From contig NC_049981.1 in the NCBI RefSeq assembly GCF_000003815.2, positions 1,480,481 to 1,544,480 on the forward strand: DNA of 64,000 bases, given 5' to 3'. Below, piece after piece: positions 2,144 to 21,998 of this stretch. Position numbers and translations under genes: made by a program. The notes under the pieces are model-generated. The model saw only the letters and a program-made list of their open reading frames with translations, had not been told where the DNA came from and did not search any database. The number at the start of each line of letters is the position of its first letter. Positions within the stretch are counted from its first letter, which is position 1. This DNA is from Branchiostoma floridae (Eukaryota > Chordata > Leptocardii > Amphioxiformes > Branchiostomatidae).

Positions 2144-5100
2144 GTTCAACTCTACCGACACACCACAGAAGATTTACGAGGATGAGAACAACCCTCCGAC
2201 GGTTACCATAGCGACCAGCGCGTCTCCGGAAGAGAAGCTGGTCAAGGCACAGAAGGTAAGAACCTTCTTTGTCAGGGTCTCATTTGCTACATTTATGTAC
2301 CTTACTGTCTCAAAACACAACTATGGGTACTATTAGTATCTTTAAAAAGCGTCATGCGTCATCTCAATTGAGGATGACAGCCTTACCTTATCTTTACTTT
2401 ATGTATTTCCTTTTTTTATGTGCAAATAAAATCAAACAAACAAACAAACCTTTAGTCTTTACTGAAACAAACCTTTAGGCTTTACTGTTCCTGTTGTTTC
2501 AGGACCTGCAGGAAAAGGACCAGCTGATTATCCAGCTGCAGCAACAGCTGGCACAGCTGCAGCTGACCAGCCCTGCACGACTGCAGGGGAAACTTGCAGC
2601 ATCCCTGTCTGCAGCCCAGCAGCCGACAGTCCAAGGTACATACAATTGTTCAAAATACCAAAGACTGGAGTTTGACAATCCAAAACTTGGATATGTCCTA
2701 TTTCTTGTACGTGTGTTGATAATTTACAGTTCAGCTTTTATCCATAGGATTTTTCATTACCGTTAACCATCCAACAACAGTAGCATCTTTTGCTTCTCAA
2801 TTGTTGAGCTAAAGCAAATGTTTCCTCATGTTCACTACAGGCCTCCCGGTGATGGCGGATGGAACTGCAGCTAGCACAGAGGGTGTGCCAGCAGAAGACC
2901 GGTCCCTTGACTCGTGCTCTGGTGATGTGCCGTCAAACACTACAACGGACATCCCAACCATCGCTGTCTCTCCCTGTGACAACATGGACAAGGAACCGGA
3001 TGGTTACAGGTTCGGTCCCAACTCAGACGACACTGATGAAACCATGAACCTGGTCAACATGCCGTCAATGTTTGTTCCATGTTACCCCGGCAACAAGGTA
3101 AACGACCACGAGGAGGAGGAGGAAGATACCATGCAGATCCTGGGGGAGGCGTCTGCATTTGTGAGAGAGACATTGGGTGACCCCGCACCCCCTTCAGAAG
3201 GAATGGAAGCATCCAGCACGGCATCTGTGAGCTCAGCGGACCGTACCAAACCTGAGGCTGTGCAGGGTGGTCAGAATGGATTCTCCACCAGCGTAGGTAG
3301 GTACGTGGATGGAGTCATTGCTCAGGCAGTAACAAACGTCTTAGAAGATCAGTTTAAGACGTCTGGGTATTCCGTCGAAGACGAGGCCGCGTCTGAAGAC
3401 GAGCTGACAGAAAGCTCCCCCTGTCGGAACCTGCAGGACATTGCAGCGGAGCTCCAGGCAGACCTTTCCTACTCGTCTCCATTGCCACAGGCATCAGTGA
3501 TGACCGTCAGCAAGATGGGCGAGTCACAGAGCTCCCCAGCAGGCAAGGTGCCACCTAGCACAGACACAGGAACTGCAGGAGGCTTCTCTACTGTAAATGT
3601 TGAAGTTCCCCCTAGCCCAGTGGCCCATGCTGCAGGTGACTCCACTCTTGATGATGAAGCTGTAGCTGCAGAAGCTCCGTCTAGTCCTGTGACCCATACT
3701 GCAGGAAACTCCACCATTAGTGATGAAGATGTGGGAGCATTTGTTGATGACATCATCACCAGTGCAGCAGAGCAGCTCCAGCCCACCCCTAGCTGCGCCC
3801 CCTGGAGGAACCTGCATGGCATTGCAGTCCAGCTGCAGGCAGACCTGTCCTTCTCGTCTCCTGTACAGCCACCCAGCAAAGCACGGGAAAACGCTCCAGA
3901 CTCGGACTCCACACGGGGCATGGAGGTCGCCACGAGAGATGCTCACTCCGTCATCGACCACGCCTTCCAGTTCCTGGACGAACAGGACCAACGGGTAACC
4001 GAGGAAACTGTAACCATGGCAACAGCTGATGGCCGGGAGCAGCCTGTAACCGCAGAAACAGCACCCATGGCAACACCAAAGGACCAGGCTGTATCCATGG
4101 AAACAGTTACCATGGATACACAAAGCTCACCCCCGGCCACACCAGAGAAGTTAACAGACAGCGCTACAGCAATGTCTCCTGTGGCGATGGTCGTCAAGGA
4201 GACAGAGATGACACCAAAACGTCACATCAGTGTTGCCACGGCAACCACACCAGCCAGGCTTGTCACCATGGCAGTGGGAACGTCTCCCGTGGCAACGGTA
4301 AGCAAGGAGACGGGAATGACTCCCACTAAGTTCTGTGACGCAGCAGCAGGGACGACGCCCCCTCCAGCCTTGGTCACCGTGGCAACAGTAACCACCCCCA
4401 TCCAGCAGGTTACCATGGAAACGGTGATGACCCCTGTTAGGGTGATGGAGGAGGGAACAGCCACCACTCCAGGTCAGTGACCTCACCACACAACCTCCTT
4501 TTCTCTTTCCTTCTATCATAACACAAAACGTTATGTCCATAATTCACAACTTCATCCTCATCTTTATTATTTCCATTACTGATGAATTAGCAGCCAAACA
4601 AGACATAAGAGAAACTGGCAGAATTGCATATTTTTTTGGCTGGTATTTCTGCTTCTATGCAGTACAATTACTACAAAGTAAAGCCCCTTGTGGGGCATAA
4701 CTTGCAGGGGAGTGAAAGCCCTAGTGTGATTGGCAATGGTATGCTAACAAAAATTGGTGCATGAAAACCAAAAAAAAGATGAAGTGATTTGTACATATTG
4801 CCACCCAACTAGTAGCAGCTGACACAGTCCCTACAGCTGGGTACGATCGAGTCGAGAATCCGTTATGCTTGACTCTCCCAGCTGTAAACCGCTCTACAGA
4901 GTTAGCCAATACTAGAACTAGACCTCTGCTTACAAACAATGCCAAGCAGCTGTCATTGCTTTAGCACGACAAAGTTGATGTTAGATTTTCCCCTTCCCCC
5001 CCACAGGCCTGGTGCCCCACATGACCACAGGTACAGCCATGACGCCAGGACAGGAGACCCTGCAGGATGACAGCGAGACTGTGGAGTCAGTACTCTTCTG

Positions 5101-8100
5101 TGCTTTTCCAAGTTCTCCACTTAAATATTGTCATTTCTCTTATTTTCTATTAATTTGTCATTTCTACATAAGAAGAAGGTGGTCAGCTGTACTTTCTTTG
5201 GTCCAATCCTCCCAATTTAATGAATGTAGCTACAGTCAAACCTGTACTGGTAACTACCCCTACAAAAGTACTAGTAGTAGTAGTGTACCACCTTTTTGGT
5301 GGTTTCTTAGCTTGACCAGAAACCTCTTCTCCTTATCATAACGACTACCAGTCTACTGTGACTACTTTTTCTGTTAGTCCATTGAGTGGTTGCTTTACAC
5401 AAGTATGATTGTACATGTAATGGAAATACAGATAGAGTAGATAACTAAACATGAGCTTGAGTGCATGTTCATCTGTAAATACTCTCATCAGGTTGGAAAA
5501 TCACTCAAAGTCCTTTGCACACAAACAGGGTTAATCCCTAGCCAACGTTTTGGCATCACTGTCTGTCACCTTCCTCAGGGCAATACTGAAGCTGTTTATA
5601 CTTCGCACCACTCTGGACATGAAATGTGATGAGGGGGATACAAACTCAGTCACATTTGGGATCACATTCTTCACACTGCAACGCCACCTAGGTGCAGTAC
5701 CAAGTATTGCCCTGAGGAAGGTGACAGACAGTCAAAAAACATCTGCAGGTATTATTGCCTTGGTATTTGTGTCTAAGGAATTTTGTGTTTCATGCAGTTT
5801 CTCCACCCTGGATGAATCCGGTGTGCGTCGGCGTGCCCAGACACTCGCCATCAGTAACGAGCTCCTACGGAACGACGTCCGCGCACTGAGGGAGGACCGT
5901 GCCAAGCTCAGCCAATCAGTGAACACCCTCCAACAGAGGCTGGAGAACAGTAACGCTGACCTCAGGTAACCTCTCCACATAACCTTGACCTCAGGTAAAC
6001 CCTCCACTTTACAGTGACCTCAGGTTAACCCTCCAGATTACACTTGAACTCAGGTAACCCTTCCAAGTTGAAGTATGGTCTAGACATGAAATTATTGTTC
6101 CTTGCTGATCGCCATGCTGGTAGGGTCACAAAGCAATATGGGTAAGGTGCTGAAGTCTGCCATCTCTGATTGCCTTGCTGTTGTTGTTCCAGAGCTGATG
6201 TTGCCAGGCTGGCTGTGGAGAAGGGGGAGCAAGCAGCCCTGATTGGTCAGCTGAAGAAGAAGAATAGCCAATTAGAGGAGGACCTGCTTCGGTCTTACCA
6301 GCAGCACAAGGCAGAGGTGGGATCATCTCAAACTGTTCTGTCGTCTTCTCAACAAAGTCCTTTGACTATTACTTTTCCTCTTCATATGACCCATTTGACA
6401 TGTTACCTTTCCCCCACATAACTTGACCTATGACTTTATCCAAGTGACCTTTTTCCTGCAAATAGCACATGTGACCCTTTATGTTTCAAACAGCTAAGTA
6501 TAACTTTGACCTTTGACTCTTTGTTGTGTCCTGACCTGTGACTCTTTGTTTTGACCTGTGACCTGACCTGTAACCTTTCCCCTCCAGCTGAGCGGTGTGA
6601 CCCATGAGAGGGACCGGTACTGCCGGCTGCTGGAGAGGAGCCAGATGGAGCTTGTTATGACCTGTGACCTGACCTCTAACCTTTCCCCTCCAGCTGAGTG
6701 GTGTGACCCATGAGAGGTACCGGTACCATCCGCTGCTGGAGAGGAGCCAGGTGTAATTTGTAATGACCTGTGACCTGACCTGTAACCTTTCCCCCTCCAT
6801 TTGAGCGGTGTGACCCATGAGAGAGATCGTTACTGTCGGCAGCTGGAGAGGAGCCAGGTGTAATTTGTTATGACCTGTGACCTGACCTGTAACCTTTCCC
6901 CCTGCAGCTGAGCGGTGTGACCCATGAGAGAGACCGTTACTGTCGGCAGCTGGAGAGGAGCCAGGTGTAATTTGTTATGACCTGTGACCTGACCTGTAAC
7001 CTTTCCCCCTGCAGCTGAGCGGTGTGACCCATGAGAGAGACAGGTACTGTCGGCAGCTGGAGAGGAGCCAGGTGGAGATGATGCAGCTGGAGGAAGACCT
7101 GCAGGTGTACATCGACATGTTCCAGGAGATGGAGGAGACAAAAGACTTTAACGTAAGCCTATCATCATCTTCATCATCTTCGTCAGATATACTCGCACAG
7201 AGTTGTCAGTGTAGCAGTGATCTCGAAGCAGTATAGCTCGCTGAACTGGTCATGACAGAGAGGACAGATACTATGTTTAGTATATACAGGTTCATTGTAC
7301 CGGGAAAATTCCCTCTTTTCGATAAGTGCAATGAACAGTGGACCATGGTTTCCCATCCTAAAGACTGGAACCCATTCTAGTATAGTGCATGTCGGGTGAG
7401 CGACACAGCAGGGATTCAAGCCCATGACTTGTACCCTTTTTTTCTATCGGTACATTACCATAAATGCAATGTTACTAAGTCACTGAGCCACACATACACC
7501 CGTGTTCACCTCGTATCTGTGTCTTACAGAACGATAACACCCAACTGAACAAGGAGTGTGCTGAGCATCTCCAAGAGATGGTCACCAATGTGGAGAAGGA
7601 TCGGGAGAGTCTACTCCAGGAGAGGGGGGAACTGGACCGTCTGCGGGACGATTGTGATCGCCGCACAAAAGACTTAGCTGAACGGGAAGAGGCGATGCTC
7701 GCCGAGAATAAGAGATTAAAGTTTATTGCAGAAGATGCTGAAAGGAAAGAAAGTCAGGTGGGAGAAATACTGTGAATTTATTTATTTTTGCTGCGATTTA
7801 ATTTTGGAATAAGAATATGTCGATCATCCTCACACTCAGGGTTGACAATCACGGCAAAGCCTATGATATCACCCCTGACAACTCAGCCACAGTATTCGGT
7901 TATTAGGGGTGCCTTGCTTATGAATATTAATGAGCTTACCCTTATATGGGCAGTCAGCCATTGGGGATCGGGCGTCGGCATGGTGAGCAAACAAAGCCAT
8001 GGGAATACGTAACATGATTGGCTGATAGCTTCCCAGCGGCCATTGCGGGACAGCTTTAGCCTGTTTAAAGCTCTCTCATCGCCTGTTCTCTGATTGGCTG

Positions 8101-11100
8101 GCAGCTGGTTTGTGGCGATGCCCCCGGTACCCATATATTAACCTCAGGCAAGCAGAGGTGAAAACAGATGGAGTCCCTCTGACGACTCTGTTTCGCCTTT
8201 GCGTAGGAGAATGATGTTGATTTGATTTTATGGATGGCATCCTCTTGGAACCCCAAAACTGATGTTGGCACGAGATTGCAGAATGCTATCTTATTGGTCG
8301 AATGTTTCTAACCTCTGATTGGTTGATTGTTTCAGACCAATGAGGACCTGTTTGCAACAATGTCGCAGGTTTCCGACCTCAGTGCGGACGTCGCCCTTCT
8401 CACAGCCGGTAAGATACCTAAGATTAGAGTTACATATAAGCATTACTTTGTCTGTAAAATGACATATGGTGACTTGTATCCCCTACAATTTGATTTTTGT
8501 ATCCCATATGCTGAATTGGGCCCCTTCGTTGTGATTTAACTAGCGTAGAGGTCTTTTCTATTCTTTTGCGGCAAAGGTAACATTTGTGGGCTATATTCCA
8601 TCAAGGGAAGGATGTCTACATACTCCCTTGGCCTTACAATGCTCATACGTCAGCCGAGTACCACGTGGCATTGCTGGGCTAAGATGCCCCCTGCACTGAA
8701 AAAATCCTGGTAGATTTGCAGGGCTCGAAATACTTTTTTTTTGCATACCTGCACTGGTGCAGGTATTATTGAAATTTACCTGCACCAGACAAATTTTACA
8801 TGCAACACTCTGAACCTAAGAATTATAAATCATATTAAAATTGTTCAGGAACCATACATTGCTATTTTTTCTTTCATACTTTATCAATGCAGCTAATAAC
8901 AATCCATACACACCTACATCATAGAACATTTATGTATAAAGCCCAGTACATGGACCAGTGCAGGTTAGGTGCAGGTAGACATCAGAAATACCTGCACAGC
9001 TCTAATTTTACCTGCACTAACCTGCATATGCAGGTGGTATTTCGAGCCCTGATTTGTTTCTAAACCATCTGTTCCTGCAGCTGAACAGGAGGCGAGTACG
9101 AAGCTGCAGGAAGCTGTGTCACGCTGCGAGGCGCTGCAGAGGGAGACTGAGGAGAAAGGGGCTGAGCTGGTGGGTCTCCAGGCAACCCTGAGTCTCCAGG
9201 AAATGGAGAACGTGACACTACAGGAGAGGTACGGGCTAGTCCACTACTGGTGAGGGGGTGTGGGTGGAGATGGCTAGTCCACTACTGATGAAGGGGTGTG
9301 GCTGCAGAGGGCTAGTTCATTATTGGTGCAGGTGGAATGGTTGGAGAGGGCTAGTCCACTACTGGTGAGGGGGTGTGGCTGCAGAGGGCTAATCCACTAC
9401 TGGTTAGGGGGTGTGGATGCAGAGGGCTACTCCACTACTAGTGAGGGAGTGTGGGTGGAGAGGGCTAGTCCACTACTATTAAGTTACAGGGGTGTGGATG
9501 GTGAGGGCAAATCCACCACTGGTGAGGATGGAGATAGCTAGTTCACTACTGGTTACAGGGGTGGGGTTGGAGAGGGCAGGTTCTTTACTGTTGCAGAGTG
9601 TAGGGGAAAGGGCTAGTTCATTACTGGTGGATGGGGAGGGCCAGTCCAATAGTGGTAACAGGACATGAAAGTAGACAGGGGGACTGCTATTGTAGACAGG
9701 GTTCTTAGTATTTTGTAATGCACGAAGCATTGAATAATCTAAGGGACCAGAAAAAGTGCCCTCAGTAGTAGGGGTGGGTACCAGTACAGAAAATTCAGGT
9801 CCAGGACCGGTTCAGGTCCAGAGGATCAGGTCTAGGTCAAACCTGAACCTGGACCTGATTCATTATGTGAAAACTTGTGAATGGACGATGCTCTAAACAA
9901 TGGTTCATTTTGCTACAAAGAAGTCTGTTCTGTGTAGTATGTAGACTCCCACTGGCATTTTAAAAATCATACAAGGCTAACTACCTCTGAATGATTGACT
10001 ATAAAAGTTGGTAAAAATGACTATATAGAGTCTACTCTGATTCGCTCTTGTTATTTTCCTAGACAGGTAACCCCGGAAACGTGTGAATGCCTGATCATAT
10101 AATCAGGTCATTTCCCAACATCTGGTCCGCCAAATTTTTTCAGGTCCGTTTTTTCTGGACTGGTCCAATGAGAAAAAACAGTTTTGTACCGGTACCGGAA
10201 CCCAACGCTACTCATTAGCCTATATGGTCCTCATGCAGATTTGGTTACTTGTACAGGTCTGCATTAATTAGGTCTTACTATTTGGTGCCAAATAAATGAA
10301 TGTCTCTTTTCCTTAGGTTGAGAGAGTCCGAGTCAAAGTTGTCCAAGTTGAACGAACAGCTAGATGCTGAGTTTGAAAGGTAAGTTGTTATTTTCTTTGC
10401 TAATTTTTGTTTCTTTATGATAAATATTCAGTCTGGTTTTACTTTTTCTTGTTTTTGTTTTATGAGGTTTTGTTTACATCATGCTTTGTTTACATGATGT
10501 CTTGCACAGGTTCGAAACGGAAATGCAGACAACTTCCAACAACCTTCAGGCAGCCAATCAGGAGCGAGAACAGCTGCGTCGCGACCTTGAGAACTGCCTG
10601 TCCATCATGGAGGAGAACGAGAGGGTTGCTAAGCAACAGAAACAGGAGCTGGAAGCTAAGGATGAAATCCAGGCTCAGCTCTACAGATGCAGGGAACAGC
10701 TAGAGGTGGGTGCCTGCAGTACTGTTTAAAACTGAAAGGTGGTGCTAATGTGTAGTGTTCAAACAAGTAAAAAAAATGATCCACTGGCAAATTGGGCCCC
10801 TGCTTGTATTTCAAAAATTGTAGCTTGAAAGTTTTTTTTTTACCCTTAGTTCTGAGGGGGAGGGATTCAGTCTGCATTTATAAGCAATTAATGCTAACAT
10901 GTTTGTTAGATAGTTGTTTGTTTTTTTGTTATCCTACATGTAGGACAGTGAGGCTCAGTACCATTATCAGGTGAGATTAGTTATTTGTTTAGCTATTTGT
11001 TTATTCAACTGTTTATTTCCAGGCCAGCGAAGCTTAGTAGCAAAAACAGCTGCTTGTTTGTTTGTTTGTCTAATTATTTGCTTACTTCCAGACCAGTGAG

Positions 11101-14100
11101 GCTCAGTGCCACAAACAGCTCTAATTGAATGTATGTTTGTTTGTTTAATTGTTTGTTTATTTATTTCCAGGCAAGTGAAGCTCAGTATCACAAACAGCTC
11201 TAATTGAATGTTTGTTTGTTTGTTTAATTGTTTGTTTATTTATTTCCAGGCAAGTGAAGCTCAGTACCACAAACAGCTCTAATTGAATGTTTGTTTGTTT
11301 GTTTGTTTGTTTAATTGTTTGTTTATTTCCAGGCAAGTGAAGCTCAGTACCACAAACAGCTCTAATTGAATGTTTGTTTCTTTGTTTGTTTGTTTAATTG
11401 TTTGTTTATTTCCAGGCAAGTGAAGCTCAGTACCACAAACAGCTCTAATTGAATGTTTGTTTCTTTGTTTGTTTGTTTAATTGTTTGTTTATTTCCAGGC
11501 AAGTGAAGCTCAGTACCACAAACAGCTCTAATTGAATGTTTGTTTGTTTGTTTATTTTCAGGCAAGTGAAGCTCAGTACCACAAACAGCTGTAATTAAAT
11601 GTTTGTTTATTTATTTATTTACTTGTTTATTTCCAGGCCAGCGAGGCTCAGTACCATGAGCAGCTGGCGTTCCACGAGGCTGAGCGAGACACGCAGTCGG
11701 AGTCTCTACGGGAGACAGAGGAGGCGTTATCACAGGAGACAGAGAGGGCACAGAAGTTCCAGAGGGAGTGTGAGGACAGACAGAAGGCACTGGTTACCCT
11801 CCAGGGGGACACCCAGGAACTCAAGTAGGTTACTTTTACTCTCTAGCAGGGCTCAAAATACTTTTCTATACATACATACACTGGTGCAGGTAACATTTAA
11901 AATTACCTGCACCAGACAAATTTTACCTGCACCACTCTGAATTTATGAAGTATGGATCATACTAAAGTTGTTCAGGAACCACTGTTATTTTTTTTTTCTT
12001 TTATATTTATAGGTGGTAACAGTCAATGCAGTTAATAACAATCCAAATACGCCTAAATCGTTGGATATTCATGTCTAAACCCAGTACATGGATCAGTGCA
12101 GGTTAGGTGCAGGTAGACACCAGAAATACCTGCACAGCTCCAATTTTACCTGCACTAACCTGCATATGCAGGTGGTATTTCGAGCCCTGTCTAGGAACTC
12201 ATGTAGGGTGTTCTATTGATGAGTGTATAAGAGTCACCAGAGCTTCAAACAGTCATTTTCTTCTTCTTTTTGCATTCATCGCGCTGTCTGAAAAATGACT
12301 CTGGCCCCAAACATGTTCAATAGAGTTTTCAGTTATTTTGAAATTCTTCTAGTCTCTCCTCGAATGAGAACTCTTCCACTCTTTCCTGTTTATTTCCTTC
12401 TCTGGTAATCTTCCCATGTGTCCAAGGTGCAACAGTTTTTCATAACTGCAGAAAAAGAATCCAAAGAAAATTCAATTTGAGCCTGCACAATCTCGTTTCT
12501 GTCTGTTTTCAGAGCAAAGCTATCAGAAACCCTTCAGGAGCTGGATAGCATCAAGACCTCAGCTCAGCACATGCTTCTGCAGCAAGGCCAGGAGATGCAG
12601 GCCACCCGCGAGGAGCTGGGAGCCGTTCAGGGTCGCCTGGAGGGGCTGGCCAACAGCCTAAAGGACAGGATTGGTGCCGGGAAAGAGGCGAAAGAGATGC
12701 CAGCTGTTGCCATGGCAACACCGGCTAAGGTTGCTCCCGGCAACGGCTCCTTGGTTACGCCGGCAAAGGCGGTGTCGCTGGTTTCCTCGATCATGTACGC
12801 GGTACGAGAGACGGTTATGGGAACACCGTCACCGCGACCAGACAGGCACAACGCTGCGTCATCAGAGGAACAGAACACCACACAGGGTTTGTTTGTTTGT
12901 TTGTTTGTTTATTTGTTTTGCAAAGCCTTCTTTATACACCATTTTTGTATAGTATGTACAAGCTCTGTAAGACTGGACAGTAAAGTTTGATCCACTCACA
13001 CAAGGATGGGTCCCCAGTCTTCACAAAAATGTGGTAGAATGCTAGTGTATTGTGTATTATTTATCACATAAACAAGCAAGTTTGAATTTTTCTTGCCCCT
13101 ATATCAGATGCAGTTGACCAATTGGAGAGCTCCTCTGAAGAGGAAGCTGGGAAGGAGAAGGAGCCAGACCAATCAGAGCAGAGCCTGGTGTCCCAGACTG
13201 AGGCTGTGAGTGCTCTTGTGACCAGGGTACTCGGGATGATGAAGATGCTGGAGAAAGCCAGTGACCTTGCCCTGAGTGACCTTCAAACAGAAAAGTGAGT
13301 CAAATTGTTCTTTCAATTCTTTTATTTGTATTACTTTTAATAGTACAAACAATTTTCCCATAGAAATTGGAGGTTATTATCTTTTTAAAGATTTGTTTTG
13401 ACAATTATTTTTCAAAGTCAAATGTTAATTCTAAAACCAAATGCTTTTTTTACTTCTCTACCTGCAAAACTAGTTGATAAGCTCATTGACTAGCTAGTAA
13501 CTTGTGTTGTTTGTCCTCAGTATGACCTTGAAACGTAAGCTGGGTCGGATCCATGAGGACCACGATGGCGCCATCCACGATGTCACCTCTGACCTCATGC
13601 AGTCAGAGCAGAGGTGAGAGGGCAGAGGTCATGCCTAGAATAATAAGAAGAAAAAATTGAATTTACAATTGCTTATCTTTCAAAAGGTCATTTTGTGCAA
13701 GGTTTGATCTTTCGAATTTTTGAATTATGGGAAGGTTTGTAGAGGAACATGCATTGTCCCACAGACACATATCTGTCAGAAGACACAACGCTCTGAAGAA
13801 ACTGCTAATCACTGCACATGTTTAAGTTATTCTTGGTTAAGAATTTGATAGCTTGTAACTAAGTTTTATTAATAGGTTTTTCTGACATTCTACTTAGATT
13901 TAAGTGGTGCACCCAAATTTTTTTTGGTGCACACAATTTTTTAAGCTGGGTGCACCAGTGCACCTAATCCCAAAAATGAATTTCGAGCCCTGAAACCTTA
14001 GCAAACTCAATTTACAATTTGCATATTTTGAAAAATTCACCTTGGGCAAGTTTTGATCTGTTAAACTTTTACGGGGAATGATTGTAGAGAAACATGCTTT

Positions 14101-17100
14101 ATCACATAGACGCATATCTGTCNNNNNNNNNNNNNNNNNNNNNNNNNNNNNNNNNNNNNNNNNNNNNNNNNNNNNNNNNNNNNNNNNNNNNNNNNNNNNN
14201 NNNNNNNNNNNNNNNNNNNNNNNNNNNNNNNNNNNNNNNNNNNNNNNNNNNNNNNNNNNNNNNNNNNNNNNNNNNNNNNNNNNNNNNNNNNNNNNNNNNN
14301 NNNNNNNNNNNNNNNNNNNNNNNNNNNNNNNNNNNNNNTTTCATTGCTTATCTTTCAAAGGTCATTTTGTGCAAGGTTTGATCTTTCGAATTTTTGAATT
14401 ATGGGAAGGTTTGTAGAGGAACATGCATTGTCCCACAGACACATATCTGTCAGAAGACACAACGCTCTGAAGAAACTGCTAATCACTGCACATGTTTAAG
14501 TTATTCTTGGTCAGGGTTGAACGTTAAACTCCAACACAAAGAATTGGACTTATCCCAATTTCCACAGACGAAGTGGAACTCCAGTCCCAGTTAATGAGAT
14601 CAATCGAATTCCTTGACAATGACTTTTTGTGTTGGAAATTTCTTTTCAATTGTGTTCCAGAATGACTTTTACCAACACAGATGAACTTTCATGTTTACGT
14701 TATAATCATGTATTTCATCATGTCACCTACAAAATCTAGATTGATTGGTTTGGATAGAAACCACACTGTAAGCTCCAGGCAACAGCGATTTATTTCGTAT
14801 TGTTTGAACAGAGCTGGGTTTTCACCAGGATTTTGTCACAGTGCAGAGGGTATGTAAGACTGGCAAAGTCACGTAGCAACCAGCACAGGATTGACATTCT
14901 TTGAAAATTTATAACTCTCAGACAGACTATTTTCTACATTTTGAGGACCAGATGTTATTAGATAAAGCCAACCTTTTCAACAATTGTTACAAAACAACAG
15001 AAAAGCCCCCTACACTGTTTGAAACACACCCTAGGGGTCCAAATTGCAGCGTAGAAATACAAATTACAGCATAGGAGCCTCCACGATCCCTCCAGGAAGG
15101 CACCACACGCCAGTTATGTACGACAACCAGACATTATTTTTCCTGTTTACAGGGAGGAGAAGCTGCGTGTTGAGCTGAACTTGAAGCGTGAGGAGCTGAC
15201 AGCGGTACAGCAGGCCCTGGAGTACAGCAAGGACAAACTCACCCAGCTGTCTGACAACATGGGCAGTCTGAGCGATGCACAGGCTACCTGCAAGGTAAGG
15301 TACTAGTTACATGCAAGTATAGTATAGAGTACAGCAAGGACAAACTCACTCAGCTGTCTGACAACATGCGCAGTCTGAACGATGCACAGGCAACCTGCCA
15401 GGAAAGTACTAGTTACAAGTATGGAGTACAGCAAGGACAAATTCACTCAACTGTCTGACAACATGGGCAGTCTGAGCGATGCACAGGCTACCTGCAAGGT
15501 AAGGTACTAGTGCCAGGTGAGATACAGGTGAAGTGTTGCCATGGCAGCACACCTGATAGGTGAGATACAGGTGTGTCTGCATTTGTGTACTGGTACTGTA
15601 CTGTAATTATTGAATTCAGTACAGGTCCAAAATACTGGACTGCTGAATGGTGGAATGCTGGAATGCTGAAGTACTGCACTGTACCAATATAAAGGTACAC
15701 CAAGTATATGCTTATTTTGTGACTGAAGGTAAGTCCTACCACAAAGACGAAAATTTAGAAAGGAAAATATATGAAACACTGTGCTGAAACTTTGAAATCA
15801 GAGCCATCTTTGAAATTAAAATGTTTTAGTTTTCATCTTTTTACTTCATGGCCTCATGCGAAAAGCAAACGTGACCAAAGCAACACTTAGAGATAGTTTA
15901 ACTAATATGCAACAGATCTTTCAGGTGGGGAGTTTTGTGTAACTGTGGTTACCAATAAGCCGCTACAGTTACTCTCACGATTGGTTACCATGGTGTTTCT
16001 ACGGTTACAGAAGCAGACCGCAGAGCTGGAGAAGTTGCGTGTCAACCTGCGCTCCCGCGAGGAGGAAAATCGGCTACTGAAGGAGGAGTTAGAGTCAGCG
16101 CTGGGTCAGAGGTCGCACCATGGACACAGCAGCCGGGGGTCAGATGTCACACTAGTCAAGGAGAGGATTGCTCTAAAAGCAGAGGTGACTTGAATTGTTT
16201 CTTTTGGGGAATGAAGGGAATATGCCAAACAGTTACATATATGATAGAATTGTTCGGATTCACATTCTTTTGCTTCTTGTTGTCTCACTTTTTTTGTTGT
16301 TGAGAACTTCAAGGTTACTGTAAATGCAGAAATTTTTGCGTTGTTTTTTTGTTAGTGGTTTTCGCGGTGAACACTTAACCGTAAACTTAAAACCACCGCG
16401 AACATTTTTCCGTGGCAGCAAGAGACTACAGTGAATGGTGCTGCCGCAAACTTAAAACCACCGCAAATGTTTTTTTTTCCGGCTACTGCGAAATTAAATC
16501 CCCGCGAATTTAAATGCATTTGCAGTATTGGATTTGGAACAGATTGTGGTGACTTTCTGGTTGCACCTATCTTCATTCCTGACTAACCTGTAACCCGCTC
16601 CCTGTTCCTCCACCACATTCGTAGGTGACTGAACTACGGCTGAAGCTGATGGACAAAGAAGAGGAGATGAACCAGGTCCTGGCCACAGCAAACAGAAGGG
16701 TAACAACAATCTTTCCCTGTGTTTTTTTCCTCATACCCCTCATAGTGGAGTAGTGTGACTGTGGCATAACTGCAGGGTGTCCTAAGTTCCTATCCTGTAT
16801 TAAATGCTACCGTTCTTTTGCCCTTGGAAAAGGCATTTTACACGACATTCCTTACTCCACCCAGGTGTAAAAATGGGTACCTGGCTTCAGTTGGGAGATA
16901 AAAGGGGTGGAAGGAGAGAGATGGGCTCCACCTTCCAATACCATGTCCTAGACACAGTGGATAACAGCCCACTACCCCTTGAAAATGGCTATGTCACTGC
17001 CTTTACTACCCCTACAGAGTACTTTTTTTTTCTTCTCAAAATCTTCACAAACCCCATTGACATGTGTCTGTCTCTAACCTAATTTGATTGATATGTGTCT

Positions 17101-17548
17101 AATTTGATTAACATGTGTCACCAGATGAAGGCTCATGAGAACAACCAACAGAAGGCAGAGAACGAAGTCTGCCGACTGGACAACATCATAGAAGCCATAA
17201 GAAAGGTGCGTACAGAAACGCCCTCTTGCAGTTCACTTACAAAATGCAGCCTTCTCTCTTTTGTGTCGTAATGTTTTTTCATGAGTAACCACAGAAGTCT
17301 CATTGAACTTCATTTTACTGCAATTTCCCCTTTGTATAGAAACCTTTTTATCAGCATAACCTCTTTTATTGTTTGAAGTGTTGGTTCAGCACTGCCATCT
17401 AGTGGTTTTGTTTGGAAGTACAACCTTGACTGTTCTTTTCTTGCAGACTCTCCACAAGCACAATGACATTGTGCAAACTTGTCACGAACTAGCTGAACTT
17501 CTGCAAGACTTAGACGGAGACAGCAACTCCGGGGAAGTTTTTGTATAA
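2144..17548 (+). CDS. spag5: Sperm-associated antigen 5 (astrin)-like, 3' part of gene, at least 21 coding exons
   Basis: Exons: 2144-2255, 2503-2635, 2841-4472, 5007-5089, 5798-5965 (or from 5778), 6193-6316, 7015-7152, 7530-7757, 8336-8408, 9081-9228, 10317-10379, 10510-10705, 11637-11824, 12513-12886, 13108-13294, 13521-13613, 15153-15294, 16011-16184, 16625-16699, 17125-17205, 17447-17548 (TAA at 17546). All junctions are AG/GT and phases agree, except at 5089/5798. About 1,500 codons are visible (human astrin 1193 aa). The 2144 exon starts in mid-codon, so the start lies upstream of the window. The N-terminal half is Ser/Thr-Pro-rich; from 5798 on it is almost pure coiled coil. The C-terminus (LDNIIEAIRKTL, then CHELAELLQDL) parallels the human C-terminus (LDDIVQHIYKTL, CKELQGLLEFL). 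DAAAGTTP parallels human DAAIGTTP. Known role of the family: astrin-SKAP complex at spindle and bioriented kinetochores. The assignment rests on remembered human sequence. Confidence 0.85.
2841..4472 (+). other. spag5: Giant N-terminal exon of the spag5-like gene
   Basis: This 1,632-nt exon (phase 1 in, phase 1 out) encodes about 543 residues of acidic, Ser/Thr/Pro-rich, probably disordered protein. It includes an EEEEED run near the start and many S-P and T-P sites, as expected for mitotic kinase phosphorylation. It contains a duplicated block: NL(Q/H)(D/G)IA followed by LQADLS and SSP, at 3427-3482 and 3808-3863. A second pair, SPV(A/T)H(A/T)AG(D/N)ST, lies at about 3616-3650 and 3688-3722. 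From about 4000 the translation becomes a degenerate Thr/Val/Met repeat (VTMAT, VTMET, TPxxxVT). Human astrin also has a large non-coiled N-terminal region. The functional reading is inference. Confidence 0.8.
5546..5739. mobile_element. Small inverted-repeat element in intron
   Basis: The arms CTGTCTGTCACCTTCCTCAG (about 5558-5577) and its reverse complement (about 5713-5732) extend to roughly 40 bp each, with GGGCAATACT at their inner ends. The whole is about 194 bp. No clear target duplication. It ends just before the acceptor region of the 5798 exon. Confidence 0.7.
5958..6060 (+). repeat. Tandem repeat spanning a splice donor (four copies, ~30 bp)
   Basis: The exon end GACCTCAG followed by GTAACC (donor at 5966) recurs at 5995 (CTCAG/GTAAAC), 6024 (CTCAG/GTTAAC) and 6054 (CTCAG/GTAACC), each followed by a CTCCA- or TTCCA-like stretch. 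The copies hold look-alike donors downstream of the one that keeps the reading frame. In the coding frame the codon after CTC AGG is TAA, so use of a later donor would truncate the protein. Confidence 0.8.
6588..7014 (+). repeat. Four tandem partial copies of the next exon and its acceptor (106-107 bp period)
   Basis: Copies of the 5' part of exon 7015-7152, each with flanking intron, start at 6588, 6694, 6801 and 6908. Acceptor AG is kept at 6588, 6694 and 6908 and lost at 6801 (CCAT). The copy at 6908-6964 is 57 nt, open in the exon frame (LSGVTHERDRYCRQLERSQ), preceded by CCCCCTGCAG and followed by GTGTAA. It could therefore splice as a 19-residue cassette. The intron part of the unit is the CCTGTGACCTGACCTGTAAC stretch. 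Confidence 0.9.
8719..9051 (+). mobile_element. Non-autonomous hAT5-like element, copy 2
   Basis: 333 bp with termini CAGGGCTCGAAATAC and the matching right end TATTTCGAGCCCTG, flanked by the 5-bp direct repeat ATTTG (8714-8718 and 9052-9056). It lies in an intron of the spag5-like gene, 29 bp before the acceptor of exon 9081. A 5-bp duplication fits the hAT5 group better than classical 8-bp hAT. Confidence 0.8.
9229..9650 (+). repeat. Minisatellite starting at a splice donor (~35-40 bp unit)
   Basis: The unit is close to GGGCTAGTCCACTACTGGTG followed by AGGGGGTGTGG and GGAGA, repeated about ten times with decay. The first unit starts at the donor itself (GTACGGGCTAGTCC at 9229). Many units contain GGTGAGG, a potential donor. 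Confidence 0.85.
9769..10210. mobile_element. Non-autonomous hAT element with 8-bp target duplication
   Basis: The left end is TAGGGGTGGGTACCAGTAC and the right end reads, in reverse, TAGCGTTGGGTTCCGGTACC. It is flanked by CTCAGTAG (9761-9768) and CTCATTAG (10211-10218), 7 of 8 identical. The interior has repeated GGTCCAGG and CAGGTC motifs. The same family recurs at 18281-19388. Confidence 0.8.
10944..10970 (+). other. Possible 27-nt cassette micro-exon
   Basis: TACATGTAG precedes and GTGAGA follows a 27-nt block encoding DSEAQYHYQ. It is open and in phase 0, between exon 10510-10705 (ends phase 0) and exon 11637 (starts phase 0). It is the most distal copy in the 10944-11637 repeat array and resembles the start of exon 11637 (ASEAQYHEQ). 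It may simply be a decayed duplicate; use is unproven. Confidence 0.4.
10944..11636 (+). repeat. Tandem partial copies of exon start plus acceptor (nine copies, ~62-84 bp)
   Basis: Copies of the start of exon 11637 (GCCAGCGAGGCTCAGTACCA) preceded by TTTATTTCCAG begin at 10944, 11023, 11091, 11171, 11250, 11333, 11415, 11499 and 11561. All keep the AG. Copies 11171-11561 are very alike and read in frame to CTC TAA, a stop, so splicing to them would truncate the protein. The linkers are GTTT-rich. Confidence 0.9.
11847..12189 (+). mobile_element. Non-autonomous hAT5-like element, copy 3
   Basis: 343 bp, termini CAGGGCTCAAAATAC and GTATTTCGAGCCCTG, flanked by the 5-bp repeat TCTAG (11842-11846 and 12190-12194). 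It is close to copies 1 and 2 and lies in the intron after exon 11637-11824. Confidence 0.8.
13899..13992 (+). mobile_element. hAT-like element fragment (right end)
   Basis: The stretch ends AATTTCGAGCCCTG, the same terminus as the CAGGGCTCGAAAT elements, with GGTGCACCAGTGCACC inside. No left terminus was found, so it is probably truncated or part of the local duplication. Confidence 0.45.
14123..14338. other. Assembly gap (216 N)
   Basis: Run of N inside the intron between exons 13521-13613 and 15153-15294. No sequence information. Confidence 1.
15220..15510 (+). repeat. Tandem partial copies of exon end plus donor
   Basis: The last 75 nt of exon 15153-15294 and its donor recur at 15327 and 15424 (GAGTACAGCAAGGACAAA, then a stretch close to GATGCACAGGCTACCTGCAA). 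The copy ending at 15498 keeps an intact donor, AAG/GTAAGG. The middle copy has lost it. Reading through from 15295 meets TAG within four codons, so the first donor should be the functional one. Confidence 0.9.
16316..16527 (+). mobile_element. MITE with TA flanks (CTGTAAATGCAG family), copy 1
   Basis: About 212 bp, starting TACTGTAAATGCAGAAAT and ending AAATGCATTTGCAGTA. It contains several TTCGCGGT/ACCGCGAA and TTAAAACCACCGC motifs that form sub-hairpins. Two further copies are at 28895-29102 and 52769-52980. Flanking TA dinucleotides suggest a Tc1/mariner-type origin. Confidence 0.8.
16808..17020 (+). mobile_element. SINE fragment (central/3' domain)
   Basis: The run TTTGCCCTTGGAAAAGGCA, ACTCCACCCAGGTGTAAAAA, GGGTACCTGGCTTCAGTTGG, AGATGGGCTCCACCTTCCAA, CAGTGGATAACAGCCCAC is shared with the copies at 34190-34445 (minus) and 21480-21622. 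The tRNA-like head is missing here. Confidence 0.7.
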
Positions 17549-19321: not shown

Positions 19322-19380
19322 ACCGGTGTGACAGCGATCTCACCACCCCCCACCCCCCGTGAGATCGCTGTCACACCGGT
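19322..19380. mobile_element. Short perfect hairpin insert
   Basis: 22-bp perfect inverted arms (ACCGGTGTGACAGCGATCTC plus AC) around a 15-bp CACCCCC-rich loop. ACCGGT at both ends could be a 6-bp target duplication or part of the arms. Comparison with the element at 9769-10210 shows that the hairpin interrupts ACCGGTACCCACCC. Confidence 0.7.
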
Positions 19381-19388
19381 ACCCACCC

Positions 19389-20269: not shown

Positions 20270-20472
20270 TGGGATTACTACTCTCCAAGCAGAGGTTAGG
20301 CTCCGGCTGTATCTTCAACGTTTTTTTAGTCGTTTTAATCGGGCTTTCTATTTTATATTCTATATTGCTGTTTGGATGGCGTACTTCAAGAAAAGTGACA
20401 AAATAGAAAGCCCGATAAAAACGACTAAAAAACAGCCGGAGCCTAACCTCTGCTTGGAGAGTAACGGATTAC
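20270..20472. mobile_element. Palindromic MITE (TACTCTCCAAGCAG)
   Basis: 20279-20463: arms TACTCTCCAAGCAGAGGTTA / GGCTCCGGCTGT pair with the right half and continue to GGGCTTTCTATTTT, giving a near-complete foldback of about 185 bp. Flanks TGGGATTAC (20270-20278) and ACGGATTAC (20464-20472) agree at 7 of 9, consistent with a decayed 9-bp duplication as in its relatives. A solo end of the same family lies at 45890-45903. Confidence 0.75.
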
Positions 20473-21479: not shown

Positions 21480-21622
21480 CGCGTGGCGAAACGAAAGCAT
21501 GATTGGTCCATAGGTGCAGGGTTCTAATCCTGTCACGTCACCGATCTTGTGCCCTTGAGAAAGGCACTAAACACTTCTTCCCTCTCTTTACTCGCAAATG
21601 AGTACCTGGCTTCGGTTAGGGA
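21480..21622 (+). mobile_element. tRNA-derived SINE fragment
   Basis: GGTTCTAATCC at 21520-21530 resembles a Pol III B box. It is followed by TGTGCCCTTGAGAAAGGCAC and TGAGTACCTGGCTTCGGTTA, the central domain shared with the copies at 16808 and 34190. It stops abruptly where LINE 3' sequence begins. Confidence 0.6.
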
Positions 21623-21629
21623 CATCAAT

Positions 21630-21998
21630 CGGATATTCTATCGCTACTTCCATGGTAAATGCTCGGCAGAACTTCACTCATCTGTGCCTCCAATACGAAC
21701 CTTCACTGCAAGAACACGTTTAGCCACTTCCACGGAAGCAAATCATCCTTTTTTCCTCCACAATCCTCCTTCTAGGAGGAAGTTCAACGCTCAGAGCCTT
21801 TTTCCAAGAACAACTTCGCTATGGAATGAGCTTCCACGGACCTGCTTTCCCATGGGATACAATCTTCAACTGTTTAAGTCAAGGGTTAACACACATCTTT
21901 CTTCACTATACAGTATTGTAACCCAAAACGTCTAAGTGGCTCCAACAGCCTTGTTTTGCGGTGAACTCTAAGTAAATAAAATAAAAAAAAATAAAAAT
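21630..21998 (+). mobile_element. LINE 3' end (C-terminus of a second, unrelated reverse transcriptase)
   Basis: The frame up to TAA at 21933 encodes FHGKCSAELHSSVPP, RTRLATSTEANHPFFLH, FPRTTSLWNELPRTCFP and LQLFKSRVNTHL. This resembles the conserved C-terminal tail of CR1/L2/RTE-type LINE proteins (SLWNxLP, then an LFKSRV tail). It is followed by 3' UTR and an A-rich tail from about 21973. It is a 5'-truncated copy and differs from the LINE at 61-1827. Confidence 0.6.

Follow-up and report, generated by a model that had tools for sequence, protein, structure and literature searches.

Four exon/intron boundaries of a single gene of Branchiostoma floridae are copied by tandem arrays, and a fifth array adjoins a splice donor without copying it. 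These arrays probably represent 'mirages' of the amphioxus type, i.e. independent, minisatellite-like tandem duplications that are tolerated by-products. The gene lies in a window of 64,000 nucleotides:

2144-17548, + strand: gene of 21 exons, hand-made model with 20 GT-AG introns

The splice sites of this model were picked by eye so as to hold the frame. When each junction is resolved at its exon-proximal site, a single open frame of 1502 amino acids results within the window, with its stop at 17548. The acceptor of exon 1 has a poor score (-3.82, splice-site score built from the same gene) and the 5' end of the gene may lie outside the window. The product is a long, largely coiled-coil-looking protein, which may be SPAG5/astrin-like. 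The 850 residues encoded from exon 5 on recovered one Pfam family, ANG-1, under its cut-off; the open reading frame containing exon 3 matched no Pfam family and the last 105 residues of the product gave no match in PDB. Beyond the gene (17.6-64 kb), the analysis covered lists of open reading frames and a Pfam search with one of them (21528-21932), which matched no family. The window contains four N gaps, one of them inside the gene.

Five sizeable tandem arrays were detected in the gene with TRF:

5957-6061, + strand: array 1, at donor 5966 (TRF and sequence inspection)
6545-7074, + strand: array 2, at acceptor 7015 (TRF and edge-window copies)
9233-9527, + strand: array 3, after donor 9229, with a G-rich 38-bp unit (TRF)
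about 10943-11665, + strand: array 4, at acceptor 11637 (TRF and sequence inspection)
15220-15511, + strand: array 5, at donor 15295 (TRF, edge-window copies and unit comparison)

The corresponding TRF rows are 5957-6061 (period 29, 3.6 copies), 6545-7074 (period 107, 5.0 copies), 9233-9527 (period 38 or 76), 11054-11620 (periods 83 and 63) and 15321-15511 (period 97). The unit of array 1 (about 29 bp) comprises the 9 last bases of the exon and 20 intron bases, and its repetition creates three extra donors, every one CAG|GT. The 107-bp unit of array 2 combines about 47 intron bases and 60 exon bases; among its four extra copies, the acceptor AG is kept in three and lost in the copy expected at 6801. 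Array 4 exceeds the extent given by TRF and consists of ten copies (nine extra and the real one) spaced by 63-83 bp. Its unit contains about 50 intron and 29 exon bases, and the AG is kept in all nine extra copies. Copies 4 to 8 of this array display a mutual identity of 0.86-1.00, and copies 1, 2, 9 and the authentic copy 10 an identity of 0.61-0.83 to every other copy. Array 5 is composed of three copies of about 75 exon bases and the intron start, with the GT lost in the middle copy and kept in the last one (15499). Array 3 begins 4 bp into the intron. Where the real edge is GGAGAG|GTACGGGCTAG, a number of the 38-bp units have GGAGAGGGCTAG, and the donor GT is thus not copied. Other GT sites are present in array 3, the first of which (9250) is in frame with 21 additional nucleotides.

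A 24-bp window across each of the 41 exon edges was used to look for copies of at least 19/24 within 700 bp. Such copies were found at four edges: donor 5966 (21/24), acceptor 7015 (24/24), acceptor 11637 (23/24) and donor 15295 (24/24). The best copy of donor 9229 reaches 17/24, as for donors 4473 and 16700, and is below those of acceptor 8336 and donor 11825 (18/24); this score and the unit sequence rule out array 3 as a copied donor. A preliminary description of this DNA had proposed that arrays at donors 5966, 9229 and 15295 and at acceptors 7015 and 11637 all copy the exon edge. The gene model reproduces these positions exactly and all five arrays are present, but the array at 9229 only adjoins its junction. 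The same description had considered the units at the several edges as unrelated, and indeed no sequence match between units of different arrays exceeds 8-bp words, which rules out one spreading repeat family. Within the window, the matches of each unit are confined to its own array or to the sequence directly beside it, except that part of the array-4 unit, rich in GTTT, also matches 12887-12918. The units of all five arrays fold no better than shuffled sequences (z from -0.99 to 0.69), and hairpin-driven slippage is therefore unsupported.

Repeats of the mirage type have already been described in amphioxus and were named years ago, a point absent from the preliminary description. According to excerpts of two papers (PMC3087553, PMC3902484), mirages are tandem duplications of exon/intron boundaries in the genes of Adh3, troponin C (TnC), globins and PGBD5; they are minisatellite-like, span the 5' or the 3' boundary with units of 10-160 bp, keep the AG or GT in many but not all copies, and have edge copies that escape homogenisation. 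Mirages would further be expected to leave regular splicing intact and to vary in length between alleles. The same excerpts cite Canestro 2002 (Adh) and Yuasa 1998 (TnC) for mirages, and the excerpt of PMC3087553 places the globin mirages in BflGb6 and BflGb9, where the cluster edges escape homogenisation. In our gene, the unit likewise spans the boundary in four of the five arrays (5966, 7015, 11637 and 15295), with units of 29-107 bp and 3-10 imperfect copies, and array 4 displays the turnover of the globin mirages, with a homogenised middle and diverged edge copies. Contrary to mirages, the array at 9229 spans no boundary and is not classed as one. The presence of four straddling arrays, with adjacent ones, in one gene also differs from the mirages described. 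Our literature search found no genome-wide count of boundary-straddling arrays.

The gene also contains smaller arrays detected with TRF:

2442-2487, + strand: two copies of a 23-bp unit, purely intronic, 15 bp before acceptor 2503
10469-10499, + strand: 1.9 copies of a 16-bp unit, purely intronic, 10 bp before acceptor 10510
12887-12918, + strand: GTTT microsatellite beginning exactly at donor 12887
17079-17119, + strand: two copies of a 20-bp unit, purely intronic, 5 bp before acceptor 17125

Unlike these, the small array 13905-13942 is 291 bp from the nearest junction. If mutation favoured splice junctions, for example through co-transcriptional structures at the boundary, duplications would arise there more often than elsewhere in introns; we regard such a process as unlikely, and the tie of the arrays to junctions as suggested by the counts. 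With random placement of tolerated units and corrected array ends, 4 of 10 arrays straddle a junction against 1.4 expected (P 0.03), and 4 of 5 against 1.1 when only the large arrays are considered (P 0.007); placing whole arrays instead of units raises the value for the ten arrays to P 0.056. Nine of the ten TRF arrays are localized at 30 bp or less from a junction (1.9, 3.8 and 4.3 expected under three nulls), and seven straddle one or lie within 5 bp of it (1.6 expected, in a comparison of whole observed arrays with single random units that favours an excess), these closeness cut-offs having been set after the data were seen and the gene having been selected because it shows the pattern. 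However, two of the three nulls, which allow any gene position or up to 80 exonic bases, are not exceeded: three of the ten arrays are at distance 0 against 3.3 and 2.6 expected, and five are within 5 bp (P 0.20 and 0.10). This three-null test relied on the array limits set by TRF, in which the authentic copies of arrays 4 and 5 are missing, and it counted the exonic repeat 7052-7092 and the rows at 6505-6562 as parts of array 2. The answer depends on the null chosen. Weak TRF arrays (score 30-49) may also argue against such a process: among the ten rows that are intronic or straddling, two are at a junction or within 9 bp of it. These ten, of which two overlap each other, remain from 13 rows after removal of three exonic ones; weak rows inside arrays 2 and 4 or overlapping them were omitted beforehand. 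Close copies (at least 22/24) were obtained for a fraction of 0.174 of deep-intron windows (at least 100 bp from a junction), against 0.083 near junctions and 0.051 across them, a comparison given little weight because the deep class is partly filled by the arrays and by a duplication flanking an N gap. Moreover, sequence near acceptors is rich in pyrimidines, and simple repeats tend to arise there in any case. For the recurrent junction-tied process put forward in the preliminary description, the evidence is suggestive only.

The extra boundary copies number 18, of which 16 have kept the GT or AG. Computation of the frame reveals that each of these 16 duplicate sites leads to a premature stop when it replaces the real one, which mostly contradicts the earlier proposal that the gene has decoy or optional sites in reserve. 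Three boundary copies are formally possible as in-frame cassette exons, as predicted from their splice-site scores:

6694-6750, + strand: candidate in-frame cassette of 57 nt in array 2 (acceptor 7.05; donor 4.0, CAG|GTGTAA, weak)
6908-6964, + strand: candidate in-frame cassette of 57 nt in array 2, LSGVTHERDRYCRQLERSQ (acceptor 11.48; donor 4.0)
10944-10970, + strand: candidate in-frame microexon of 27 nt, DSEAQYHYQ (acceptor 6.33; donor 10.87, CAG|GTGAGA, strong)

The last one is the array-4 copy farthest from the exon and is among the most diverged. That the copies act as usable alternative sites, through the 57-nt or 27-nt cassettes or the +21 donor 9250, appears improbable, and equally so the further idea that they provide in-frame variants of the coiled coil and an initial stage in the birth of exons or introns. 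All four options hold the frame and pass the splice-site score derived from the gene. The formerly exonic CAG|GT of array 2 could act as a donor beside the inherited acceptor, as in a potato intron that, according to the abstract describing it, was gained through a boundary-crossing duplication; in contrast to that case, the array-2 sites are predicted from sequence. Similarly, variable internal tandem repeats in human segmental-duplication genes have minisatellite units and may create novel introns when located at an exon-intron boundary, but these concern recent paralogs with reported support from alternative transcripts (excerpt of PMC2812944). Against usable copies, the array-2 donor is weak (4.0) and an insertion of 19 or 9 residues does not amount to a whole number of heptads. 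The scan detected 13 in-frame cassettes; apart from the three candidates, none is a copied exon edge that inherited its boundaries, the other ten lying in array 1 (two), within array 3 or directly behind it (six) and in intron 10 outside the arrays (two). Passing the scan is therefore cheap, and the presence of both an acceptor and a donor at the three candidate cassettes weighs little. Less probable still is an assembly artefact, i.e. false tandem copies from joined haplotypes or collapsed repeats. The gap in intron 16 is flanked by a 170-bp duplication with 99.4% identity, a usual sign of false duplication, and together with the N gaps this indicates that the copy numbers of the arrays may be wrong. 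In the excerpts of the amphioxus papers, the BflGb6 mirage seems aberrantly assembled in the draft genome (PMC3087553) and the number of PGBD5 repeats is unequal between two B. floridae sequences (PMC3902484). Nevertheless, arrays 2 and 4 contain many graded, diverged copies and are gap-free inside, and the PGBD5 repeats were confirmed in re-examined Sanger and Illumina data, although their authors do not wholly exclude an assembly error (excerpt of PMC3902484). The excerpt of a huntingtin paper (PMC2206037) mentions tandem repeats and assembly errors; boundary duplications are not among the subjects of that excerpt.

If the arrays are mirages, as we favour, each founding unit would have straddled an exon/intron boundary (or lain beside one at 9229), and the arrays would then have expanded and been partly homogenised by ordinary tandem-repeat turnover, through slippage or unequal exchange. 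After duplication, the copy adjoining the rest of the exon would stay usable, leaving the protein unchanged, and the extra copies would join the intron. This geometry would render boundary duplications tolerable, since the exon-proximal copy can still be used, and purely exonic duplications would be purged by selection. Most copied splice sites would be neutral or mildly harmful, and the arrays presumably without function. An observation against the mirage reading is that the arrays, including small ones free of exon sequence, are nearer to junctions than would be expected if they were simply placed at random. Tolerance alone is insufficient as an explanation, given the small arrays near junctions that copy no exon.

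Among the ways in which introns and exons have been proposed to arise is tandem duplication across a boundary. With four boundary duplications, a gene such as this would be a good place to see whether copies become spliced, and it would let one ask if lancelet junctions are prone to duplication. It is doubtful that lancelets have a process that repeatedly duplicates junction sequence, with at least four independent boundary duplications in one gene, some of them in-frame exons in the making (with 10944-10970 as the best candidate). If true, such a process would be a natural source from which new exons and introns continue to arise.

The gene model (2144-17548, + strand) was built by eye from the sequence, with splice sites picked to preserve the frame, and comprises 21 exons, 20 GT-AG introns and a single open frame of 1502 amino acids. 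Short introns (median 487 bp) separate the exons. Because the acceptor of exon 1 has a poor score with the splice-site matrix, the model is uncertain at its 5' end. The encoded protein looks largely coiled coil. The product may be SPAG5/astrin-like; the parts of the protein searched against Pfam and PDB gave nothing firm.

Ten of the merged TRF arrays with a score of at least 50 start within this 15.4-kb gene, versus five in the remaining 48.6 kb of the window. The preliminary description held that five junctions are each edged by a tandem array copying the exon edge. This stands for donors 5966 and 15295 (arrays 1 and 5) and acceptors 7015 and 11637 (arrays 2 and 4): among the 41 exon edges of the model, only these four have, within 700 bp, a copy that agrees in 19 or more of 24 bases; acceptor 8336 and donor 11825 come next (18/24 each). 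It does not hold for donor 9229, where array 3 starts 4 bp into the intron and the donor GT is not duplicated. The units were rightly described as unrelated between arrays, their matches in the window (E up to 0.001) being confined to their own array or adjoining it, except that 12887-12918 is matched too, by a GTTT-rich segment within the unit of array 4. No unusual folding was detected in any of the five units. A 15-bp coding repeat (2.7 copies, 7052-7092, detected by TRF) lies inside exon 7, where the exon-derived portion of the array-2 unit ends.

Beyond the authentic sites, the boundary is copied three times in array 1, four times in array 2, nine times in array 4 and twice in array 5. 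The GT or AG is retained in 16 of these 18 extra copies; it is missing from the middle copy of array 5 and from the array-2 copy that should lie at 6801. According to the computed frame, each of the 16 retained sites leads to an early stop when substituted for the real site. The same is observed for 14 of the 15 donor-like GT sites that score at least 3 across 9229-9679, which covers array 3 together with its extension downstream, the sole exception being the site 9250 (in frame, +21 nt). Five introns were also scanned for cassettes of 15-250 nt (acceptor score of at least 3, donor score of at least 2). The scan printed 13 frame-keeping cassettes, some with peptides in the wrong phase, and three of them are copies of authentic exon edges:

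6694-6750, + strand, candidate cassette of 57 nt, donor 4.0
6908-6964, + strand, candidate cassette of 57 nt, donor 4.0
10944-10970, + strand, candidate cassette of 27 nt, acceptor 6.33, donor 10.87

The scan is easily passed, since ten further cassettes pass too (two in array 1, six within or just past array 3 and, not belonging to any array, two in intron 10). The scores derive from a small matrix of the gene's own sites (leave-one-out ranges of 0.96 to 11.55 for donors and -3.82 to 13.51 for acceptors), and close copies of real sites are favoured because these sites were kept in the matrix.

The association with junctions was compared with chance. When the founding unit is allowed anywhere purely intronic or across exactly one boundary, 1.36 straddling arrays are expected versus 4 of 10 observed (P 0.028), and 1.08 versus 4 for the five large arrays only (P 0.007); random placement of whole arrays gives 1.72 expected (P 0.056). 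Seven of the ten arrays straddle a junction or lie within 5 bp of one versus 1.57 expected (P 7e-5), a comparison of whole observed arrays with single random units that is biased toward excess. Within 30 bp, nine are observed versus 2.81 for whole arrays randomly placed, a count reached in none of 20000 placements. The small P values overstate the link, because the 5- and 30-bp limits were fixed after the data had been seen and the gene was chosen for its pattern. Three earlier nulls using uncorrected array ends disagree with one another (expected 3.3, 0.6 and 2.6 versus 3 observed at distance 0; 4.3, 1.9 and 3.8 versus 9 within 30 bp). Of 10 weak array rows (score 30-49) that are intronic or straddle a junction, 2 lie at a junction or within 9 bp of one, and close copies are more frequent for deep-intron windows than for junction windows. 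With introns this short, tolerated units of roughly 100 bp would each straddle a junction with a chance of nearly one third.

Array 4 comprises ten copies and extends back to about 10943. Its copies 4-8 share identities of 0.86-1.00, whereas the identities to all others are 0.61-0.83 for copies 1, 2, 9 and 10 (the last being the authentic one) and 0.67-0.87 for copy 3. The copies of array 5 are 0.88-0.95 identical. The pattern of array 4 agrees with that reported for the amphioxus globin mirages (duplicated exon/intron boundaries), in which turnover is concerted in the middle of the cluster and the edges escape (PMC3087553); the authentic copy of array 2, 0.98 identical to its neighbour, does not fit this picture.

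The window contains four N gaps. In intron 16, the two copies of a 170-bp direct duplication (13668-13837 and 14343-14511, 99.4% identical) enclose the gap 14123-14338. They look like a false (haplotype) duplication, so errors of this kind are a real concern where exact copy numbers are at stake, though less for the graded arrays. Read by eye, three places at about 1850-2010 (upstream of exon 1), 8720-9050 and 11850-12190 (introns 9 and 13) share one CCTGCAC/GTGCAGG-rich sequence, which terminates close to tatttcgagccctg and resembles a dispersed transposable element. Immediately upstream of the gene model, a 552-aa ORF (214-1872, - strand) is, judging from its domains (zf-RVT above the cut-off, partial RVT_1 below it), a LINE-like remnant. 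A long MITE-like inverted repeat (about 20279-20460) and an inverted repeat with a C-rich core (about 19325-19385) were also noticed by eye.

Minisatellite-like duplications of intron/exon boundaries were described in amphioxus globin genes by Ebner et al. 2010 (PMC3087553), who took the term "mirages" from work on Adh3, cite other loci and state that mirages can arise at both boundaries. Repeats of 60 and 108 bp occur at splice sites of lancelet PGBD5, with copy numbers varying between two sequence versions, and TnC is also named (PMC3902484). Four straddling arrays within one gene may be new, the literature searched showing no such case, in itself weak evidence. According to the globin study, its own RT-PCR and the Adh3 data suggest that mirages leave regular splicing undisturbed, and its authors proposed them as a source of new introns (PMC3087553). 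In a potato gene, an intron was gained via a boundary-crossing duplication with a donor derived from exonic sequence (PMC4974935), and such an exon-derived donor would be required for the 57-nt copies of array 2 too.
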